Part shown: in pieces, positions 20,726-32,130 of the stretch
Layout: every line of letters starts with the position of its first letter
Position numbering within the stretch: the first letter of the stretch is position 1
Origin: Elusimicrobiota bacterium
GTDB taxonomy: Bacteria > Elusimicrobiota > Endomicrobiia > Endomicrobiales > Endomicrobiaceae
Assembly: GCA_031287735.1 (NCBI GenBank)
Contig: JAITSO010000058.1
Location: 1-32,130 of the forward strand
Reading direction: 5' to 3'
DNA length: 32,130 nucleotides
Position numbers and translations under genes: made by a program
Notes under the pieces: generated by a model
The model's database searches: none
Told to the model about the DNA's origin: nothing
The model's input: only the letters and a program-made list of their open reading frames with translations

Positions 20726-20849
20726 CTAACCAAAGTCCAGACAAAAGCACGTTTAAGTTTCTGCTAAATTGATGTCAGACAAACAAACACGCAATGATTT
20801 GCCTTAAATTTTGGAAAATACACCTAACGCATGTTTTCTTCGCATTTTG

Positions 20850-20855
20850 TATAAT
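20850..20855 (+). promoter_or_regulatory. -10 box immediately upstream of the methyltransferase start
   Basis: A consensus TATAAT ends 6 bases before the ATG at 20862. Transcription from it would begin at or next to the start codon, giving a leaderless or nearly leaderless message. No good -35 box is visible at 16-18 bases, so confidence is limited. Confidence 0.4.
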
Positions 20856-20861
20856 AACTGC

Positions 20862-22454
20862 ATGCCAGAATGTAGAGATTGCTTAACCATCAAAGAAGCC
20901 AGTATTTGGGCTACTGATCATTTAGGAAAGAAAGTAACAACTTCTAATATTTCTTATCTTGTTCAATATGGACGTATTGCAAAAATTGGATATAACGGTT
21001 CAACTCATATTTCAAAATTTGATCTTGAAAAATATTACCGTTCATTAGGTAAATCAAAAGAAACTGCTTGGAAAGAAAAATTAGGACAAGATTTAAATTG
21101 GACTTTGTCTTTTGATAAATTAAAAGAATCCGACACCACTAAGCATATCCATAGGCTCCACCCGTATAAAGGCAAGTTTATTCCGCAACTTGTTGAGTAC
21201 TTTCTTGATAGCCATACCGACAATTTTAAAACCGCAACATATTTCAAAGAAGGAGACATAGTTTTAGACCCTTTTTGCGGCAGTGGTACTACACTTGCTC
21301 AGTCAAATGAACTTGGACTTCATGCCATAGGTATAGATGTTTCATCGTTTAATGTCTTTATTTCAAACTGCAAAATTGCAGATTACGACATCAAGCGGTT
21401 AGATGAAGTAATAAATCAAATAACAATCAAATTGTATTCTGAAGCAAAAATTTTGAAATCTGATTTTGAAAATACTCTTATAGAGAAATTAAAAATGTTT
21501 AACAACAAATACTTTCCTGCTACTGAATTCAAATATAAATTAAGACAAAATCTCATAGATGAAGATAAATACGGTGCAGAAAAAGAAAAATTGTTCTTGC
21601 CTATTTATGAAAAACTAATTTCAGAATATAAAATAGATTTACTCAAAAAAAATCCAAAAACTTTTTTAGAAAAGTGGTATTTTAAAAATATCCGCTACGA
21701 AATAGCTTTTGTGTTTAATGAAATAAAGCAGATACAAGATGCCAGCATTGAGAAAATTCTTGATTTAATTCTCAGCCGAACAATACGTTCTTGCAGAGCA
21801 ACTACACATTCGGACTTGGCAACGCTTGTAGAGCCGATTTCTACAACTTATTACTGCTCAAAACACGGCAAAATTTGTAAGCCTATTTTCTCAATTATGA
21901 AATGGTGGCGTACATATTCGAAAGATACTGTTAATAGGTTAAAGGATTTTGCAAAGTTAAAAACTAATACATATCAATATTGTTTAGCTGGAGATAGCAG
22001 AGTAATAAATATTCCTGTTGAGATATTAAAAAAACAAAAAAATCTTGCAAGTGTGCTACAGAAGCAAAAAATAGCAGGTATATTCTCAAGTCCGCCTTAT
22101 GTAGGTCTTATAGACTATCACGAGCAGCACGCATACGCTTATGATTTATTTGGTTTTGAAAGAAAAGATGAGCTTGAAATTGGTCCGTTATTCAAAGGAC
22201 AAACAAAAAATGCTCAAAAAAGTTATGTGGAAGGTATTTCAGCAGTTTTAAATAACTGTAAAAAATACTTAAAAGATGATTACAATGTCTTTTTGGTAGC
22301 AAATGATAAATACAATTTATACCCAACAATAGCAGAAAAATCCGGAATGAAAATAGTTAATCAATTCCGTCGTCCGGTGCTTAACAGGACGGAAAAAGAT
22401 AAAGGTGCATACTCGGAAACAGTGTTTCATTTGAAAAGAATGAAGGAGATATAA
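20862..22454 (+). CDS. DNA methyltransferase, N4-cytosine-type motif, with N-terminal HTH
   Basis: 530 residues from the ATG at 20862; the frame is open 17 codons further up, but those residues look unlike the family. The N-terminus (TIKEASIWATDHLGKKVTTS) looks like a helix-turn-helix of the MerR/excisionase type. HPYKGKFIPQLVEYFL leads into the SAM-binding motif I DPFCGSGTTLAQS (Asp136). About 270 residues later comes the catalytic motif SSPPY (409-413), then IDYHEQHAYAYDLFGF. Motif I before motif IV with a long insert in between, probably the target-recognition region, is an alpha-like order. SPPY suggests N4-cytosine methylation. The frame is intact. The HerA-like gene starts 2 bases after the stop, implying a two-gene unit. 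Target sequence unknown. Confidence 0.85.
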   Translation: MPECRDCLTIKEASIWATDHLGKKVTTSNISYLVQYGRIAKIGYNGSTHISKFDLEKYYRSLGKSKETAWKEKLGQDLNWTLSFDKLKESDTTKHIHRLHPYKGKFIPQLVEYFLDSHTDNFKTATYFKEGDIVLDPFCGSGTTLAQSNELGLHAIGIDVSSFNVFISNCKIADYDIKRLDEVINQITIKLYSEAKILKSDFENTLIEKLKMFNNKYFPATEFKYKLRQNLIDEDKYGAEKEKLFLPIYEKLISEYKIDLLKKNPKTFLEKWYFKNIRYEIAFVFNEIKQIQDASIEKILDLILSRTIRSCRATTHSDLATLVEPISTTYYCSKHGKICKPIFSIMKWWRTYSKDTVNRLKDFAKLKTNTYQYCLAGDSRVINIPVEILKKQKNLASVLQKQKIAGIFSSPPYVGLIDYHEQHAYAYDLFGFERKDELEIGPLFKGQTKNAQKSYVEGISAVLNNCKKYLKDDYNVFLVANDKYNLYPTIAEKSGMKIVNQFRRPVLNRTEKDKGAYSETVFHLKRMKEI

Positions 22455-22456
22455 CA

Positions 22457-24556
22457 ATGAACAGAAAAGCAAGACTAATATTTTTAGGACTTTCATTAAT
22501 CTTTTTGATTGGTGTTGGTTATTATGTGTCAAAAAACTTTGACTTTTTACTGAATGATTTTTGGTTTACGTCAGGTTTTTTATTGCTAATATTGCTTTCT
22601 TTGATTGACCAACCGTTTTTTTCCAAAGATTCAAATGTGTTTGTTAATGCCATTACTGCGGGAATATCTTTGTTGCTTGTTAATCCAGAATATCGTAGTT
22701 GTTTATTTTGGATATTTGGAGGAATTACGCTTTACTTAGCAATTAGCAGTTATGTTTTGATGTGGATAAGGAGTAAATCGTTGCCAAACGAGAATAAACT
22801 GACACAATTTATTTCAAAGATTAACAGAGAGATTGGGAAACCCCAAACACTTTTTTCTGCTTTTTTTCTTTGGGGTGCGATTAATAAGTTTGGTGTAAAC
22901 AGTTATGCTTTTAACGCATTAATGCTTTATTGGGCAATTTTTATGATATTGCGTATTGACGCTATTGCTATGATAATAAGCAGTTTGTTTGATAAAAAAG
23001 AAAACATTGAACAGGAATCAGCATTGGGTAAAATTTTTGGCGTTCAATCTAAAAATACTTTCCTTGTAAAACTTTTTCCAGAACGAAAAGAAACAACTAA
23101 AATATTTGATTTTGTTGAATTTTTATACTCAATTGACGAAAAGCAAACTGTTAGAAAAGGGTTGATACTAGACACTTATTTATTAAATGAGCAACAATGG
23201 GTTAAAGTGCTTACAACAAATGAGATAACCAGAATCTTTGAAAAAGGGAACTGCTTTGAAAATCATACCGCAGATGTTGTTTATAAAGTTAAAGAAGTCC
23301 CCGATACAAAATATCTGAATACATTTATTGGAATTGTAACTGAAAATTCTACAATTGAAAAAATCAAATTTATATACAACTCTAAAAATGAAATAACAGA
23401 AAGTAATTTGTTAGAAGTGAAAATTGGAAATCGTACAGTTTATTATCAGATAATTGAAGGTATGACTATAATTGAACAGTTGGAAAATAAAAATGAAACA
23501 GGTTTTATTATTGGCGAAGCCATTCAATTAGGTATTTGGGAACATGACAAAGTGAAATTTGAGCCTTTCGGTTGGGTGCCTGAAATTAATTCACCAGTCT
23601 ACATTGCTTCTCATATAGAAAACACGACAATAGGAACAGATGAACTTGAAATTGGTAAAATCCCAAATACTAATTTCCCAGTTGTCATTAAAAAAGATTT
23701 AGCGTTAACTCATCACACTGCAGTTATTGGTGTTACAGGAACCGGGAAGTCAGTTTTTTCAAGAAACCTAATTAGAGAATATCTCAAAGACGAAAAAGTG
23801 AAGGTGATTTGTGTTGATTTTACAGGTGAATATAAAGATAAATTTAAGGACTTAACTCCAGTTGATATAATTAATGATACAATGGAAAAAGAGCTGTTTA
23901 AAAAGATTGATGAAGTAGAAGCTATGCTTATAGCGTCATACGGAAAAGAGAATAATAAGACTAAAACCAAACGGCAAGAAATTTCCAAAAAAATGATTGA
24001 GCAAATATCTGTATTTCTGAAAGATAACAATTCAAAAATTTCAATAATAGATTTGCCTGAAATTGTAAATACTTCGGCAAATTTTGAATATATGAGGTTA
24101 TTTATTAAGTCAATATTCTATATTGCAAAAAAAGAAAAATCATTTGGAAATAAGGTTTGTTTAGTATTAGAAGAAGCTCATACAATTATACCCGAATGGA
24201 AATTTTCAGGAATTTCCGAAAAATCGGCGCAACCGTTATTAAATAGTATCGCTCAAATAGCCTTGCAAGGTAGAAAATATAATGTTGGATTGTTGGTAAT
24301 TGCACAACGAACAGCAAATGTTTCAAAAACAATCCTAACACAATGCAATACAGTTGTTGCATTCCAACAATTTGATAAAACAAGCAGTGAATTTTTAGCT
24401 AATTATTTTGGTGACGGTATCGCCAAAATCTTGCCAACTTTAAAATTTAGACAAGCGGTAGTTGCAGGGAAAGCATTGAAATCAAATATTCCAATGATTT
24501 TTGAAGTTCCTGAAATTGCAGAACAACAAGAAAGAACGGAACGTGAATATTTATAA
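22457..24556 (+). CDS. Membrane-anchored HerA/FtsK-like ATPase (DUF87-type)
   Basis: 699 residues. Four or five hydrophobic segments lie in the first 170 residues (about 5-25, 34-54, 65-110, 130-165). A soluble part with beta-rich character (about 200-410), possibly a HAS-barrel-like region, precedes a HerA-type RecA ATPase: HHTAVIGVTGTGKSVFSR (Walker A, Lys431), VICVDFTGEY, Walker B VCLVLEEAHTIIPEW (Glu572/Glu573), and GRKYNVGLLVIAQRTANVSK with the usual Gln-Arg sensor/finger region. HerA ATPases are DNA-translocating hexamers used in repair and in several phage-defence systems. Membrane segments are atypical for HerA. AAGGAGATATA precedes the ATG, 2 bases after the methyltransferase stop. 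No NurA or other nuclease partner is adjacent. The frame is intact. Confidence 0.85.
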   Translation: MNRKARLIFLGLSLIFLIGVGYYVSKNFDFLLNDFWFTSGFLLLILLSLIDQPFFSKDSNVFVNAITAGISLLLVNPEYRSCLFWIFGGITLYLAISSYVLMWIRSKSLPNENKLTQFISKINREIGKPQTLFSAFFLWGAINKFGVNSYAFNALMLYWAIFMILRIDAIAMIISSLFDKKENIEQESALGKIFGVQSKNTFLVKLFPERKETTKIFDFVEFLYSIDEKQTVRKGLILDTYLLNEQQWVKVLTTNEITRIFEKGNCFENHTADVVYKVKEVPDTKYLNTFIGIVTENSTIEKIKFIYNSKNEITESNLLEVKIGNRTVYYQIIEGMTIIEQLENKNETGFIIGEAIQLGIWEHDKVKFEPFGWVPEINSPVYIASHIENTTIGTDELEIGKIPNTNFPVVIKKDLALTHHTAVIGVTGTGKSVFSRNLIREYLKDEKVKVICVDFTGEYKDKFKDLTPVDIINDTMEKELFKKIDEVEAMLIASYGKENNKTKTKRQEISKKMIEQISVFLKDNNSKISIIDLPEIVNTSANFEYMRLFIKSIFYIAKKEKSFGNKVCLVLEEAHTIIPEWKFSGISEKSAQPLLNSIAQIALQGRKYNVGLLVIAQRTANVSKTILTQCNTVVAFQQFDKTSSEFLANYFGDGIAKILPTLKFRQAVVAGKALKSNIPMIFEVPEIAEQQERTEREYL

Positions 24557-25867: not shown

Positions 25868-26864
25868 ATGAGCATAAAACCTATTGATACGAAGTTTAAA
25901 ACAGTCATAGAAAAAAAACACTTTTTATTTTTTTAATCAAAATTTTGAGGAAAAATATGAAGGATATATAAATTCTCTAAAAGAAATATTGCTTGTATTG
26001 AAAAATCAGGTAGAAACATGCGGTCTTAAAAAAGAACTTTTTGAACGAATGATTTTAGAGAAAGAAAACGGACTTAAAGCACTGCTTGCTTTAACAGGGT
26101 TTTCGCAGGAAATGTTTAAAAGATTAACTACTATTATGCGGATTATTGATGATGCCGAGCTAGATAAACTAACTTATAAAGATAAATGGCTAAACAAGAA
26201 AACTGCACTTGACTTTAATGAATGGCCCGATAAAATGATTTCTAAGTTAATAAAAGAAAATAAGTTTTTTAGAAAGGGTATTGTAAATATATTTTTTGAA
26301 GGTTCTACTGTACCGTTTCTTACAAAAACTATACCTCTTTTTGAATTAAAAAAATTAAGTATTTCAAAACTAAAATTTGAACTACCTGAAATGATAGATA
26401 CTTTAATAAGATACAAAGAAAAAGGCAGTCGTTCAGGTAAAAAAGAAAATAATGCTGAAATTTTAATAGAACAAATTTTAGAAAAATTAGGAATAAATTT
26501 TGAAAAAGGCGATTTAAAAGAACTTATTAAAAATACTCCTGACAACAAAAGAACAATGGACTTTATCATCCCTAACAAACAAAAACCTCTTATAATAATT
26601 GAAAGCTCGTTTCTTGCTACAACTTCATCAGGACAAGGCGATAAATCAAAAACTGAAATTTCTATAGATGCGCTTATAAAATCATATTATCCAAAAGCAA
26701 AGTTTATCGGGTTTGTTGACGGTATTGGATGGTATGTAAGAAGAGGTGATTTAAAAAGAATGATTGCTGCTTATGAAGATGTCTTCACTTTCCATAAAGA
26801 TGAATTACAAAGGTTTGAGAAGTTTTTAATGGATATAATAGTGCTAAAGGATAAGAAATGTTAA
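25868..26864 (+). pseudogene. DpnII-family restriction endonuclease, frameshifted near the N-terminus
   Basis: The ATG at 25868 begins MSIKPIDTKFKTVIEK and stops after 22 codons, just past an A8 run (25911-25918) and a T7 run (25928-25934). Removing one base there joins it to NQNFEEKYEGYINSLKEILL and the long frame to 26864, about 331 residues in all. The C-terminal part matches the DpnII-type endonuclease domain: RTMDFIIPN, IIIESSFLATTSSGQGDKSKTE (PD-(D/E)xK-like acidic residues and Lys), FIGFVDGIGWYVRRGDLKRM and DVFTFHKDELQRFEKFL. The rest of the frame is clean, so this could be recent loss, slippage-based switching or a sequence error. Its end overlaps the next methyltransferase by 7 bases. 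Confidence 0.8.
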
Positions 26865-27684
26865 AAAAATTTATAAACACCATTATAAACGACGATTGTT
26901 TAAACGTGTTAAGAGATATTTCCAGTAATTCAGTAGATGTGACTTTCGCGGATCCGCCTTTCAACTTAAAGAAAAAATATAATAAATACAATGATGCAAA
27001 GGAAACGCAGGACTATTTAATTTGGTGTCAGAAATGGCTAAACGAAATGGTGCGTATAACAAAGCCTACAGGTGCAATTTTTGTTCATAATATTCCGCGT
27101 TGGCTTTCTTATTTTTCAAATGATTTAAATAAAATTGCGTACTTTAAACATTGGATTGCTTGGGATTCACCAAGTGCTCCGCTTGGAAAAACCTTGTTGC
27201 CAAACCACTATGGAATCTTATATTACACGAAGGCAAAATCTCATAAAGATTTTAAATTTTTTGATATAAGATCACCTCATCCGCGTTGCAGAATTTGTAA
27301 AGAATTTTTAAAAGATTATGGAGGGAAAAAAGCGTTGGCACATGGTTTTGGTCCGTTAGTTTCAGATGTTTGGAATGACATACATAGAATAAGACATAAG
27401 AAAATCAATTGCCTATACCATTGCTTGAACGATTAATTTTAATGACTACAGAAGAAGGCGACATTGTTTTAGATCCTTTTATAGGAACAGGAACAACTGC
27501 TGTTGCAGCTAAAAGATTAGGAAGGAAATACATCGGCATAGAGCAAGACAAACAATATACGGCAATTGCACAAAAAAATATTGCAGCCGCACAGCAGACA
27601 AAAGCCAACGGTTGTTTTGTTTCACAATATCTTGGACAGATTAAAACAATAAGGAATAAAGATTTTAAAATGATTTTTAGCTAA
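26858..27684 (+). pseudogene. Beta-class DNA methyltransferase, disrupted by a small deletion/frameshift
   Basis: The first frame (26858-27436) carries INDDCLNVLRDI, the catalytic motif ADPPFNLKKKY and the conserved GFGPLVSDVWNDIHRIRHKK. It then runs out of frame into NCLYHCLND and stops. The expected continuation (QLPIPLLERLILMTT, motif I DPFIGTGTTAVAAKRLGRKYIGIE) is in another frame from about 27405. The family normally has a short RDxHPC segment between HRIxH and QLPI; it is missing here, which fits a deletion of roughly 20 bases. Order motif IV then motif I is beta class, and DPPF suggests N6-adenine methylation. It was presumably the partner of the DpnII-family endonuclease just upstream. 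Confidence 0.82.
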
Positions 27685-29161: not shown

Positions 29162-30214
29162 ATGGACAACTTGCTTAAAAGTTTATTGATGTCGGATGGT
29201 ATTTCAGGCTACGAAGAAAATGCTGGTAAAATTATGACAGAAGCACTATCCAAGGTATGTATCGATGTGAAAACTGACAGTTTTGGAAATGTCATAGCAA
29301 AAGGTGGTAAAATTGGAGCAAAAAAGAAAATTCAAATTGCTGCTCATCTTGATGAAATTGGAATGGTTGTAAAACATATCACAAGAAAAGGATTTATATA
29401 TTTCATTAAAATTGGCGGCATTAGCGATACGATTTTGCCCGGAAAAACTGTTAATATTATAAACAGAAAAGGCAAGCACATCGTAGGAATTATAGGTACA
29501 AAACCTCCTCATTTAATGTCTGCAGAAGAAGCACAAAAACCGATAAAATATGAAAATATGTTTATTGATATAGGTCTTTCTTCAAAAGAGGAAGTTTTAA
29601 AAAAAGTTGAAATAGGCGACCAAATAATTTTTGAGCCAAGTGCCGGAGTTCTAAACGGCGATTTTTATTACGGAAAAGCTGCAGACAATAGAATTAGTTG
29701 TTATGCGATGGTAAAAGTTATGGAAGAGATTGCAAAAAAAAACATCGAAGCTGAAATTTTTGCTTGTGCTACTGCTCAAGAGGAAGTTGGCTTAAAAGGT
29801 GGAAAAACATCGTCTTTTAAAATAGATCCTGATTTTGCACTTGTAATAGATACGACTATTGCCGGCGATATTCCTGCAATAGAAGAAAAAGTTTCGGGTT
29901 TAAAACTTGGTCAAGGCGTTGCTATCACAATAATAGAAGCCTCCGGCAGGGGCACTATCGTTCCACAGAAAATTCGCAATCTAATTTTATCGGTTGCCCG
30001 CGAAAATAAAATTCCGCACCAAGTTGATATTATTGAAGGCGGAATGACAGATGCAGCTGTGATTTATACAAATCGGCAAGGAATTTTAACCGGCATATTA
30101 AGCATTCCCACAAGATATATTCATGCTCCAGCTTCCGTTTTTAATATAAAAGATGTAGAAGCTGCCGTAGCACTTTCTGCAAAAACCATAGAAAAAGTGG
30201 TAAAAGAACTTTGA
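29162..30214 (+). CDS. M42-family metallo-aminopeptidase
   Basis: 350 residues from the ATG at 29162, which has GGAGG 4-5 bases upstream; the frame continues 25 codons further up without family resemblance. M42 (TET-type) enzymes are cytosolic dinuclear-metal aminopeptidases that form tetrahedral dodecamers and trim short peptides. Metal and catalytic residues appear intact: AAHLDEIG (His62, Asp64), AADNRISC (Asp175), AQEEVGLKGG (Glu207, Glu208), VIDTTIAGD, and PTRYIHAPAS (His321). The PDZ-like insert (GIIGTKPPHLM) is also present. The substrate cannot be told from sequence. Its stop overlaps the start of the next gene. Confidence 0.93.
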   Translation: MDNLLKSLLMSDGISGYEENAGKIMTEALSKVCIDVKTDSFGNVIAKGGKIGAKKKIQIAAHLDEIGMVVKHITRKGFIYFIKIGGISDTILPGKTVNIINRKGKHIVGIIGTKPPHLMSAEEAQKPIKYENMFIDIGLSSKEEVLKKVEIGDQIIFEPSAGVLNGDFYYGKAADNRISCYAMVKVMEEIAKKNIEAEIFACATAQEEVGLKGGKTSSFKIDPDFALVIDTTIAGDIPAIEEKVSGLKLGQGVAITIIEASGRGTIVPQKIRNLILSVARENKIPHQVDIIEGGMTDAAVIYTNRQGILTGILSIPTRYIHAPASVFNIKDVEAAVALSAKTIEKVVKEL

Positions 30215-31038
30215 GCTTCAATTTTTGCATTCTTGCAAGCGGTTCTAGCGGAAATTGTGCAGTTGTATGGACAGAAAAAGCTGTTATTCTCATTGATTGT
30301 GGTTGCAGTGCAAGATATATTTTAGAAAATTTGCACAGTTTGAATTTCTCACCAAAAGATATCAATGCAGTAGTTATTACCCATGCACATTGCGATCACA
30401 TAGCTTCGTCAGCTATGAATTTTTTAATCGAAAAAAATATCCCTATTTACATAGATGACGATGTTTATTGCGACATTTTACCCAAGCACAAAGGAAAAAT
30501 AAAGGAATGCAAAACCAGAAACATTAGCGATTTTTTTAAAATTAAGGATATAGAAATTTGTGCTTTTAAGCTTTTCCATAAAGATAACAGCATTAACCGG
30601 TGCTTTGGTTTTACTTTTTCATCTGCTGTAAATCAAAAAAAATACAAAATAGGTTATATAACTGATACCGGTAAAATCACTTCGTCTATTGCAGAAAAGC
30701 TTGCAAATTCAAATATACTAGCTATAGAAGCTAACTATGACGAAAAACTACTTAGCGAAAGCTTCAGACCTGAAAAAAACAAAGAATGGATTTTAAGCAC
30801 TTATGGACATTTGTCAAACAAAAGTTGTGCAAAAGCTATAATTGAAATAAGCAAACTTTCAACAACAACCGACTCGCTAAAATACATTTTCCTATCTCAT
30901 TTGAGCCGTCATCACAACAATGAAAATCTTGCTATTAGAACTGTTTCTGAAATTCTTTTTAAGGAAAAAATCACCCCGTCTAAAATTTTAGCTGCAAAAA
31001 GAAATAAAAAAATGCCTGCTATTAAAATTACACAATAA
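30211..31038 (+). CDS. MBL-fold metallo-hydrolase, WalJ/YycJ-like
   Basis: 275 residues. The start is TTG at 30211, overlapping the M42 stop (TTGA), with only a weak upstream purine stretch. The metallo-beta-lactamase signature THAHCDH is intact, preceded by ILASGSSGNCAVV and LIDCGCSARYI, the typical N-terminus of YycJ/WalJ proteins. Later blocks are KIGYITDTG, ILAIEANYD, STYGHLSN and LSHLSRHHNN. The family is related to single-stranded 5' exonucleases linked to DNA repair and, in Firmicutes, to the WalRK operon; no walRK is visible here. The basic C-terminal tail is a little long. It is the last gene before the repeat-rich spacer. Confidence 0.88.
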   Translation: MSFNFCILASGSSGNCAVVWTEKAVILIDCGCSARYILENLHSLNFSPKDINAVVITHAHCDHIASSAMNFLIEKNIPIYIDDDVYCDILPKHKGKIKECKTRNISDFFKIKDIEICAFKLFHKDNSINRCFGFTFSSAVNQKKYKIGYITDTGKITSSIAEKLANSNILAIEANYDEKLLSESFRPEKNKEWILSTYGHLSNKSCAKAIIEISKLSTTTDSLKYIFLSHLSRHHNNENLAIRTVSEILFKEKITPSKILAAKRNKKMPAIKITQ

Positions 31039-31235
31039 CTCCATAGCGTTTAAGTGCTTCGATTCGCATTTTGAGGAGACAGCAATTTCACCTTTTCACG
31101 CAATAGCATGTACAGTTTGACTTTAATTTCCTATTTTCTTGCAATCAATATGCGGTATTGTTTTTAATCCCCGCATTTTGGGAACGCAGTTCACTGGTAA
31201 ATTCCACCTTTCCCTTGTGACAGTCACGTTGTTGC

Positions 31236-31450
31236 CTTTAATTCCCACTTTTTCAAGATAAGATCGGGCAGCTCGCCTTTAATTCCCACTTTTTTAAAGG
31301 GGGTGGGCGCCAACGGCGGCCGGGGGTTTTAAAACCTAAAATATAAAGTATACTCGTTAGTCACTTACCTAAAAGTAAATCCTGACATTTGAAAACCCCC
31401 GCACTTTACAAGCACACCCCCTTTAAAAAGTGCTGAATTAAAGACAAAGG
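31236..31450. repeat. Long direct repeat, copy 1 (215 bases)
   Basis: Matches 31603-31817 with 8 differences by eye (about 96%) and no gaps. It contains the palindromic element at 31277-31443. Confidence 0.9.
31277..31443. repeat. Palindromic MITE-like element, copy 1 (167 bases)
   Basis: Imperfect terminal inverted repeats of about 28 bases: the left end reads CTTTAATTCCCACTTTTTTA and continues to GGGGGTG, and the right end is its near reverse complement. Inside is a second inverted pair, CGGGGGTTTTAAA and TTTGAAAACCCCCG. The centre holds two copies of ACCTAAAA. There is no ORF. It looks like a small non-autonomous mobile element or a strongly folded RNA. Confidence 0.7.
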
Positions 31451-31602
31451 ATTGTGTGCCTATTACAAAGAGGAAGTTGCAATTCCACCTTCATTGTAGC
31501 AGACACGACTTTGCATTCAATTCCACTTTTTTCAAGATGGGTGTGGACAGTTTGCCGGAAAAATCTACTTTCCTAAAGTCCGGGACGGGCTTTAAACATC
31601 GG

Positions 31603-31817
31603 CTTTAATTCCCCCTTTTTCAAGATAAAGTCGGGCAGCTCGCCTTTAATTCCCACTTTTTTAAAGGGGGTGGGCGCCAACGGCGGCCGGGGGTTTTAAA
31701 ACCTAAAATATAAAGTATACTCGTTAGACACTTACCTAAAAATAAATCCTGACATTTGAAAACCCCCGCACTTTACAAGCACACCCACTTTAAAAAGTGT
31801 TGAATTAAAGACGAAGG
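31603..31817. repeat. Long direct repeat, copy 2 (215 bases)
   Basis: Second copy of 31236-31450, offset 367 bases, same orientation. Confidence 0.9.
31644..31810. repeat. Palindromic MITE-like element, copy 2 (167 bases)
   Basis: Same structure and length as 31277-31443. One substitution in the right arm (CCCACTT for CCCCCTT) slightly weakens pairing of the terminal repeats. Confidence 0.7.
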
Positions 31818-31909
31818 TGCAGCTCATCCGGTCTTTAATAAAATGTGGAATTAAAGGACAGAATGCATTTTTGAATTGGGAAAAATAAATTAAAGGAGTC
31901 AATTTCATT

Positions 31910-32130
31910 ATGGTAAACAAACTTATTCTTGGAGACAATCTCGAAATTCTAAGAAAATTAGATAGCGAAACAGTAGATTTAATCTATCTTGACCCACCGT
32001 TTTTCTCAAATCGCAATTACGAAGTAATCTGGGGAGACGCCGGCGAAATACGCAGTTTCCAAGATAGATGGTCAGGCGGGGTAGAACATTATATCGCATG
32101 GCTTAAAGAACGAGTTGTCGAAATGCACCG
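31910..32130 (+). CDS. DNA methyltransferase, N-terminal part (runs off window)
   Basis: The ATG at 31910, with AAAGGAG 11 bases upstream, opens a frame to the window end (73 complete codons). MVNKLILGDNLEILRKL, then DLIYLDPPFFSNRNYEVIWG, is the N-terminus and catalytic motif IV (DPPF) of a beta-class site-specific methyltransferase, probably adenine-N6. IAWLKERVVEMHR continues the fold. DPPFFSNRNY-type enzymes include modification subunits paired with separate restriction genes, so a partner may lie further right. The part seen is intact, unlike the broken methyltransferases at 24.6-27.7 kb. The palindromic repeats end about 100 bases upstream. Confidence 0.88.
   Translation, partial: MVNKLILGDNLEILRKLDSETVDLIYLDPPFFSNRNYEVIWGDAGEIRSFQDRWSGGVEHYIAWLKERVVEMH

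Follow-up and report, generated by a model that had tools for sequence, protein, structure and literature searches.

The intergenic repeat block at 31199-31857 of the window, by which we mean the whole 32,130-nucleotide stretch analysed here (contig C31, JAITSO010000058.1, of an Elusimicrobiota (Endomicrobiaceae) bacterium genome assembled as 1.36 Mb in 60 contigs and called G000 below), is probably a REP/MITE-like array in which paired copies of a 51-nt unit serve as the ends of non-autonomous addiction-module cassettes and also drive genome rearrangement. The array, to which no strand is assigned, lies between a metallo-beta-lactamase-fold gene (30211-31038, forward strand) and the 5' part of a multi-copy N6/N4 DNA methyltransferase gene (31910-32130, forward strand), whose frame is cut by the contig end.

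Two 215-nt direct repeats of one family (D1), at 31236-31450 and 31603-31817 on the forward strand, were present as the first-pass annotation had described them, with 96% identity and an offset of 367 nt, and each contained a 167-nt element without assigned strand (31277-31443 and 31644-31810) consisting of an inverted pair of 51-nt units. The terminal inverted repeats claimed for these elements were located in both copies as outer arms that are 78-81% complementary (31277-31308 with 31412-31443, and 31640-31675 with 31779-31814), as were the inner inverted pairs, at 93% complementarity (31321-31334 with 31388-31401, and 31688-31701 with 31755-31768). The first element comprises a left unit on the forward strand (31280-31330; 73.7 bits with model R1) that includes a forward-strand side hairpin (31305-31321), an unstranded AT-rich loop (31331-31391) and a right unit on the reverse strand (31392-31440; 47.2 bits); the corresponding left and right units of the second lie at 31647-31697 (forward; 73.7 bits) and 31759-31807 (reverse; 43.6 bits). 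A forward-strand leader (31818-31909), common to several other copies of the gene, runs from the second element to the start codon of the methyltransferase, which adjoins the block as had been stated. Half-sites of the form AATTCC(C)AC recurred in direct and inverted form, spaced around the elements at about 36-45 nt with variable spacers and often pointing inward from both sides, and the mosaic of sub-motifs noted earlier is produced by this recurrence of outer-arm half-sites. The block has no ORF of note, again in agreement with the earlier description.

The 51-nt unit reads AATTCC(C)AC..TTTAAAGGGGGTG, followed by a side hairpin and then CGGGGGTTTT. Across aligned copies of the element, the outer half ran from the arm AATTCC(C)AC(C)TTTTTTAAAGGGGGTG through a variable side hairpin to the inner stem CGGGGGTTTT, and the centre was an AT-rich loop followed by the mirror image of arm, hairpin and stem. 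The same structured units also occurred as single copies and at either end of gene cassettes. Side-hairpin sequences (in G000 mostly with stems of 3-8 bp and loops of 3-4 nt) differed widely among copies and between the two ends of a single copy. The mean stem of 46 distinct G000 hairpins was nevertheless 4.85 bp, compared to at most 4.04 bp after shuffling and 4.24 bp when arms were swapped between hairpins, and 83.7% of the hairpin cells in alignment A1 were paired (54.9% when shuffled) with a covariation score of 0.607 (0.143 when shuffled), neither value being reached in any of 500 shuffles. As the varying hairpins stay self-complementary beyond what shuffling gives, the fold of the unit is maintained, either as RNA or as single-stranded DNA. 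Folding of the whole element relative to shuffled sequence gave z = -6.1 as DNA and z = -4.5 as RNA. When the flanks were inspected by eye for target-site duplications, none stood out: the outer TTAATT was seen to belong to the repeat itself, and most copies were within arrays.

The block matched 141 stretches of its own genome, with E values down to 2e-160 outside the window, and the prospect raised in the first-pass annotation, that no copies would be found anywhere else, does not hold. A covariance model of the 51-nt unit gave at least 137 matches in G000 (a lower bound, with 148 candidates scored), 109 in G021, 25 in G001, 23 in G009, a relative in a single contig of 1,588,979 bases, and a few in some others, with no match in 29 of the 40 genomes searched by this model, including eight of genus g7. 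This genus is probably the lineage of Endomicrobium trichonymphae, a related endosymbiont in whose study by Zheng and colleagues no transposon structures were reportedly found. In G000, where the stretches surrounding matches were read, the arrays examined were intergenic, and units were found in both orientations between tandem, convergent and divergent genes, with no fixed position relative to them. At 22 of 43 arrays one side had no gene of at least 110 aa within the stretch read, mostly because the contig ends; as many arrays abut contig ends, the repeats evidently break the assembly and the array lengths are minimum values. The unit in G009 and G001 is mainly a single REP-like hairpin, often CGTC-tagged, and a CGTC tag beside the hairpin was present in G021 and G009 units and in a minority of G000 units. 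On G021 contigs (e.g. L081, L087, L114 and L142) a high-copy version of the unit, with the hairpin GGAGACAATGTCTCC followed by the shared stretch GCCGTATGCGCAAGG.., was seen near many contig ends. Outside Endomicrobiaceae, similar half-units appeared as single matches in some Bacteroidota and other bins, a match in Helicobacter labacensis being set aside as it looks like chance, while IMG/VR held no match to the unit pattern and a literature search by sequence letters returned nothing relevant. One contig binned to Christensenellaceae (L134, JAITQU010000097.1) carried a unit whose side hairpin matches one in G000 exactly, and is probably a mis-binned Endomicrobium contig, or else reflects transfer.

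The 5' end of the multi-copy methyltransferase was found at seven loci and its 3' end at eight, with both on contigs C7 and C56, and the repeat adjoined the gene at all seven of the former and all eight of the latter, the window's own locus included. Most copies have the leader ahead of the start codon in common, and an inverted unit lay approximately 65 nt past the stop codon at each of the eight 3' ends. The gene is whole in the C7 copy only, because contigs break inside it. In an alignment of all methyltransferase fragments the C7 copy was misplaced, and the comparison of the C16 and C48 copies alone was used; identity between these was 96-100% over the first ~150 alignment columns, fell to 30-40% in the central part and was again 90-100% beyond it, a pattern that exchange of recognition domains would be expected to give. 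A fused restriction enzyme was considered, the C-terminal part of the methyltransferase being nuclease-like by eye, and was rejected for want of Pfam support. The second cargo encodes a protein of 912 aa, in which N6-methylase, HSDR_N and specificity domains were recognised; on C60 it is immediately flanked by a left unit and a right one, making it an R-M gene bounded by inverted repeats, and a third, on C27 (L037, 3866-4813), is a pair of a Phd/YefM-like antitoxin (28.1 bits, just below the Pfam cut-off) and a YoeB toxin between inverted units. Further R-M genes (TaqI/Eco57I-like, and an EcoRI-type methylase) had an array on one side. Among 80 units in G021 there were five close inverted pairs; four enclosed no gene and the fifth surrounded ordinary metabolic genes, and as these pairs are mostly gene-free, the cassette arrangement is so far known from G000 alone.

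The AT-rich loop of the window element resembles the leader of the C26 methyltransferase copy, with an alignment score of 51 where the best of 1000 shuffles scored 32. A short element adjoining the 912-aa gene matched the leader of that gene with a score of 41, a weaker case that is barely above the best of 1000 shuffles (40), and the two crossed loop-leader comparisons (scores of 23 and 13) were within the shuffle range. As the loop of a short element resembles the leader of its cargo, we infer that the short elements may be internal-deletion (MITE-like) derivatives of cargo cassettes, although a short element that had taken in cargo would yield equal similarity. The cargo-bearing relatives of the short element held R-M or toxin-antitoxin genes and, in a search for PF01797, no recognised transposase. 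At L014 (C56, 3463-3827) a methyltransferase copy was seen reduced to short pieces between two arrays (about residues 1-38, 194-220 and 466-509), and is apparently intermediate between the cargo-bearing and cargo-less forms.

Gene order was also broken at the arrays. In G056 the metallo-hydrolase gene is followed by a 50-codon ORF and then ilvD; in G000 the metallo-hydrolase gene on C31 is followed by the array and the methyltransferase 5' part, and on C50 a methyltransferase 3' part and an array precede ilvD. On this arrangement C31 would continue into C50 across the contig break, with the inserted DNA placed between two genes that G056 has close together. Similarly, the RelA/SpoT gene adjoins RecG in G009, G052 and G056. 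In G000 an array, a methyltransferase, a second array and a different gene set stand before RecG (C7), and the RelA gene is on C43, facing arrays located at the start of that contig. These comparisons, which covered two loci in distant relatives, indicate that former neighbours have been separated at arrays in G000.

The first-pass annotation had offered a MITE-like element, a folded RNA or a recombination hot spot bringing in modification genes. The first was supported by a short, non-coding, dispersed, multi-copy element that has terminal inverted repeats and is apparently a deletion derivative, and the last by arrays associated with both modification genes and broken gene order; the folded RNA gained little from the analysis. 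Under the cassette reading, two inverted units of ~51 nt would form the ends of small cassettes that move as units with an R-M or toxin-antitoxin gene inside, the 167-nt elements would be cassette ends joined over internally deleted cargo, with part of the leader retained, and the arrays would be accumulated outer ends. Recombination between dispersed arrays would insert cassettes, exchange hairpins and break gene order. Our guess is that a transposase acting in trans, since lost or else not recognised, initially dispersed the units, and that they later spread by homologous recombination, perhaps aided by breaks made by cargo nucleases. The Y1 transposase (PF01797, Y1_Tnp) was absent from G000 and G021 in a search in which control genomes matched, and no unit-like pattern was found near twelve Y1 loci in other genomes with similar half-units, and a RAYT/Y1 link was rejected. 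A bolder proposal, which we offer tentatively and consider rather unlikely, is that these loci represent a transposase-less class of cassette, in which one 51-nt repeat would provide interchangeable inverted ends for unrelated addiction modules, yield MITE-like deletion forms and spread via folded single strands or cargo-induced breaks, with the selfish cargo driving the movement. A concrete DNA structure at both ends is common to the R-M genes here, a toxin-antitoxin pair and short deletion-like derivatives, and this suggests a testable way for addiction genes to multiply in a reduced genome, and to reshuffle it, with no recognisable transposase.

The arrays, folded sites, interchangeable ends and varied cargo would also suit units that are recombinase sites, attC-like or dRS3-like, which captured genes between them and never transposed, and dRS3 of Neisseria is itself made of CGTC-1 REPs in large clusters (PMC3733652). 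We consider such a recombination-site array unlikely, however, as in several genera single units occupy many intergenic positions where there is neither array nor cargo, and no dedicated recombinase was identified, PF01797 being the one transposase or recombinase family searched for. That the arrays act as RNA, for example as attenuators or bidirectional terminators, would account for the covarying hairpins, the strong RNA fold and the intergenic placement, but covariation is equally expected of single-stranded DNA, Rfam models at gathering score gave no match to the element, and units occur in both orientations between tandem, convergent and divergent genes; as two-sided bracketing of cargo and the deletion-like forms would also be left unexplained, we think this account improbable. 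Passive local duplication by slippage and unequal exchange, without mobility, fits the window's tandem periodicity and its 367-nt duplication, and a single local event may well account for the doubling there, but as a full account it is refuted by the presence of the unit at dozens of unrelated places and in further genera and sits poorly with the constant position of units beside cargo genes, so that it has next to no chance of being the whole explanation.

Returning to the cassette reading, the repeat was compared to four known systems. CGTC REPs are dimers of unlike units, clustered in some genomes, with no associated transposase, and are defined by a CGTC (or TGTC/CCTC) tag beside a stem of 8-9 bp with a loop of 4-5 nt (PMC3733652, Di Nocera et al. 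2013). The family studied here resembles this superfamily, Neisseria dRS3 included, in its short intergenic palindromic units, its dimers with different stems and its clusters, and G009 and G021 units have the CGTC tag beside the hairpin. In G000, by contrast, most units have other letters in place of the tag, an extra outer arm adds to the unit's length and the stem mostly falls under 8-9 bp, so that the G000 units mostly have neither the defining tag nor the defining stem and loop, and R-M and toxin-antitoxin genes lie between inverted units. REPIN/RAYT systems likewise have palindromic units in inverted dimers, with singlets and clusters in one genome, but identity with RAYT REPINs is excluded by the absence of a Y1 (RAYT-type) transposase from G000 and G021. 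R-M units with imperfect inverted ends and linked rearrangement are described in the available text on Furuta et al. 2010 (PMC3874152, PMC6361761), and the G000 loci are like these in having rearrangement-associated R-M genes bounded by inverted repeats; they differ in that cargoes unrelated to each other, a toxin-antitoxin pair among them, have one repeat in common, and that short deletion-like derivatives accompany the cargoes. R-M genes at rearranged places are likewise noted for Endomicrobium trichonymphae in the available account of Zheng et al. 2016 (in PMC11257099). We claim the G000 family only as a variant, which joins features of CGTC REPs to the inverted ends of R-M units and adds toxin-antitoxin cargo and deletion-like derivatives; the kinds are known and the combination is new. 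No earlier description of this repeat-cassette family was found in the literature covered, from which key papers are missing. It may offer a lead on the spread of CGTC-type REPs, which have no known transposase.

Other genes of note were observed near units on contig C32 and elsewhere in the window. At L051 (C32, 2153-4499) five units in a single orientation, and so not an inverted bracket, surround a PD-(D/E)XK nuclease-like ORF (262 aa) and a 291-aa ORF of unknown kind. A second N6/N4 methyltransferase at 26858-27684 of the window appears frame-broken, with two overlapping ORFs matching successive parts of one methyltransferase family, and is adjoined by a DpnII/BanI-like endonuclease ORF (25989-26864). 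Finally, at 20811-24556, a DNA methylase ORF is followed directly by a HerA-type (DUF87) ATPase ORF in a stretch without repeat units, and these are possibly another defence pair.
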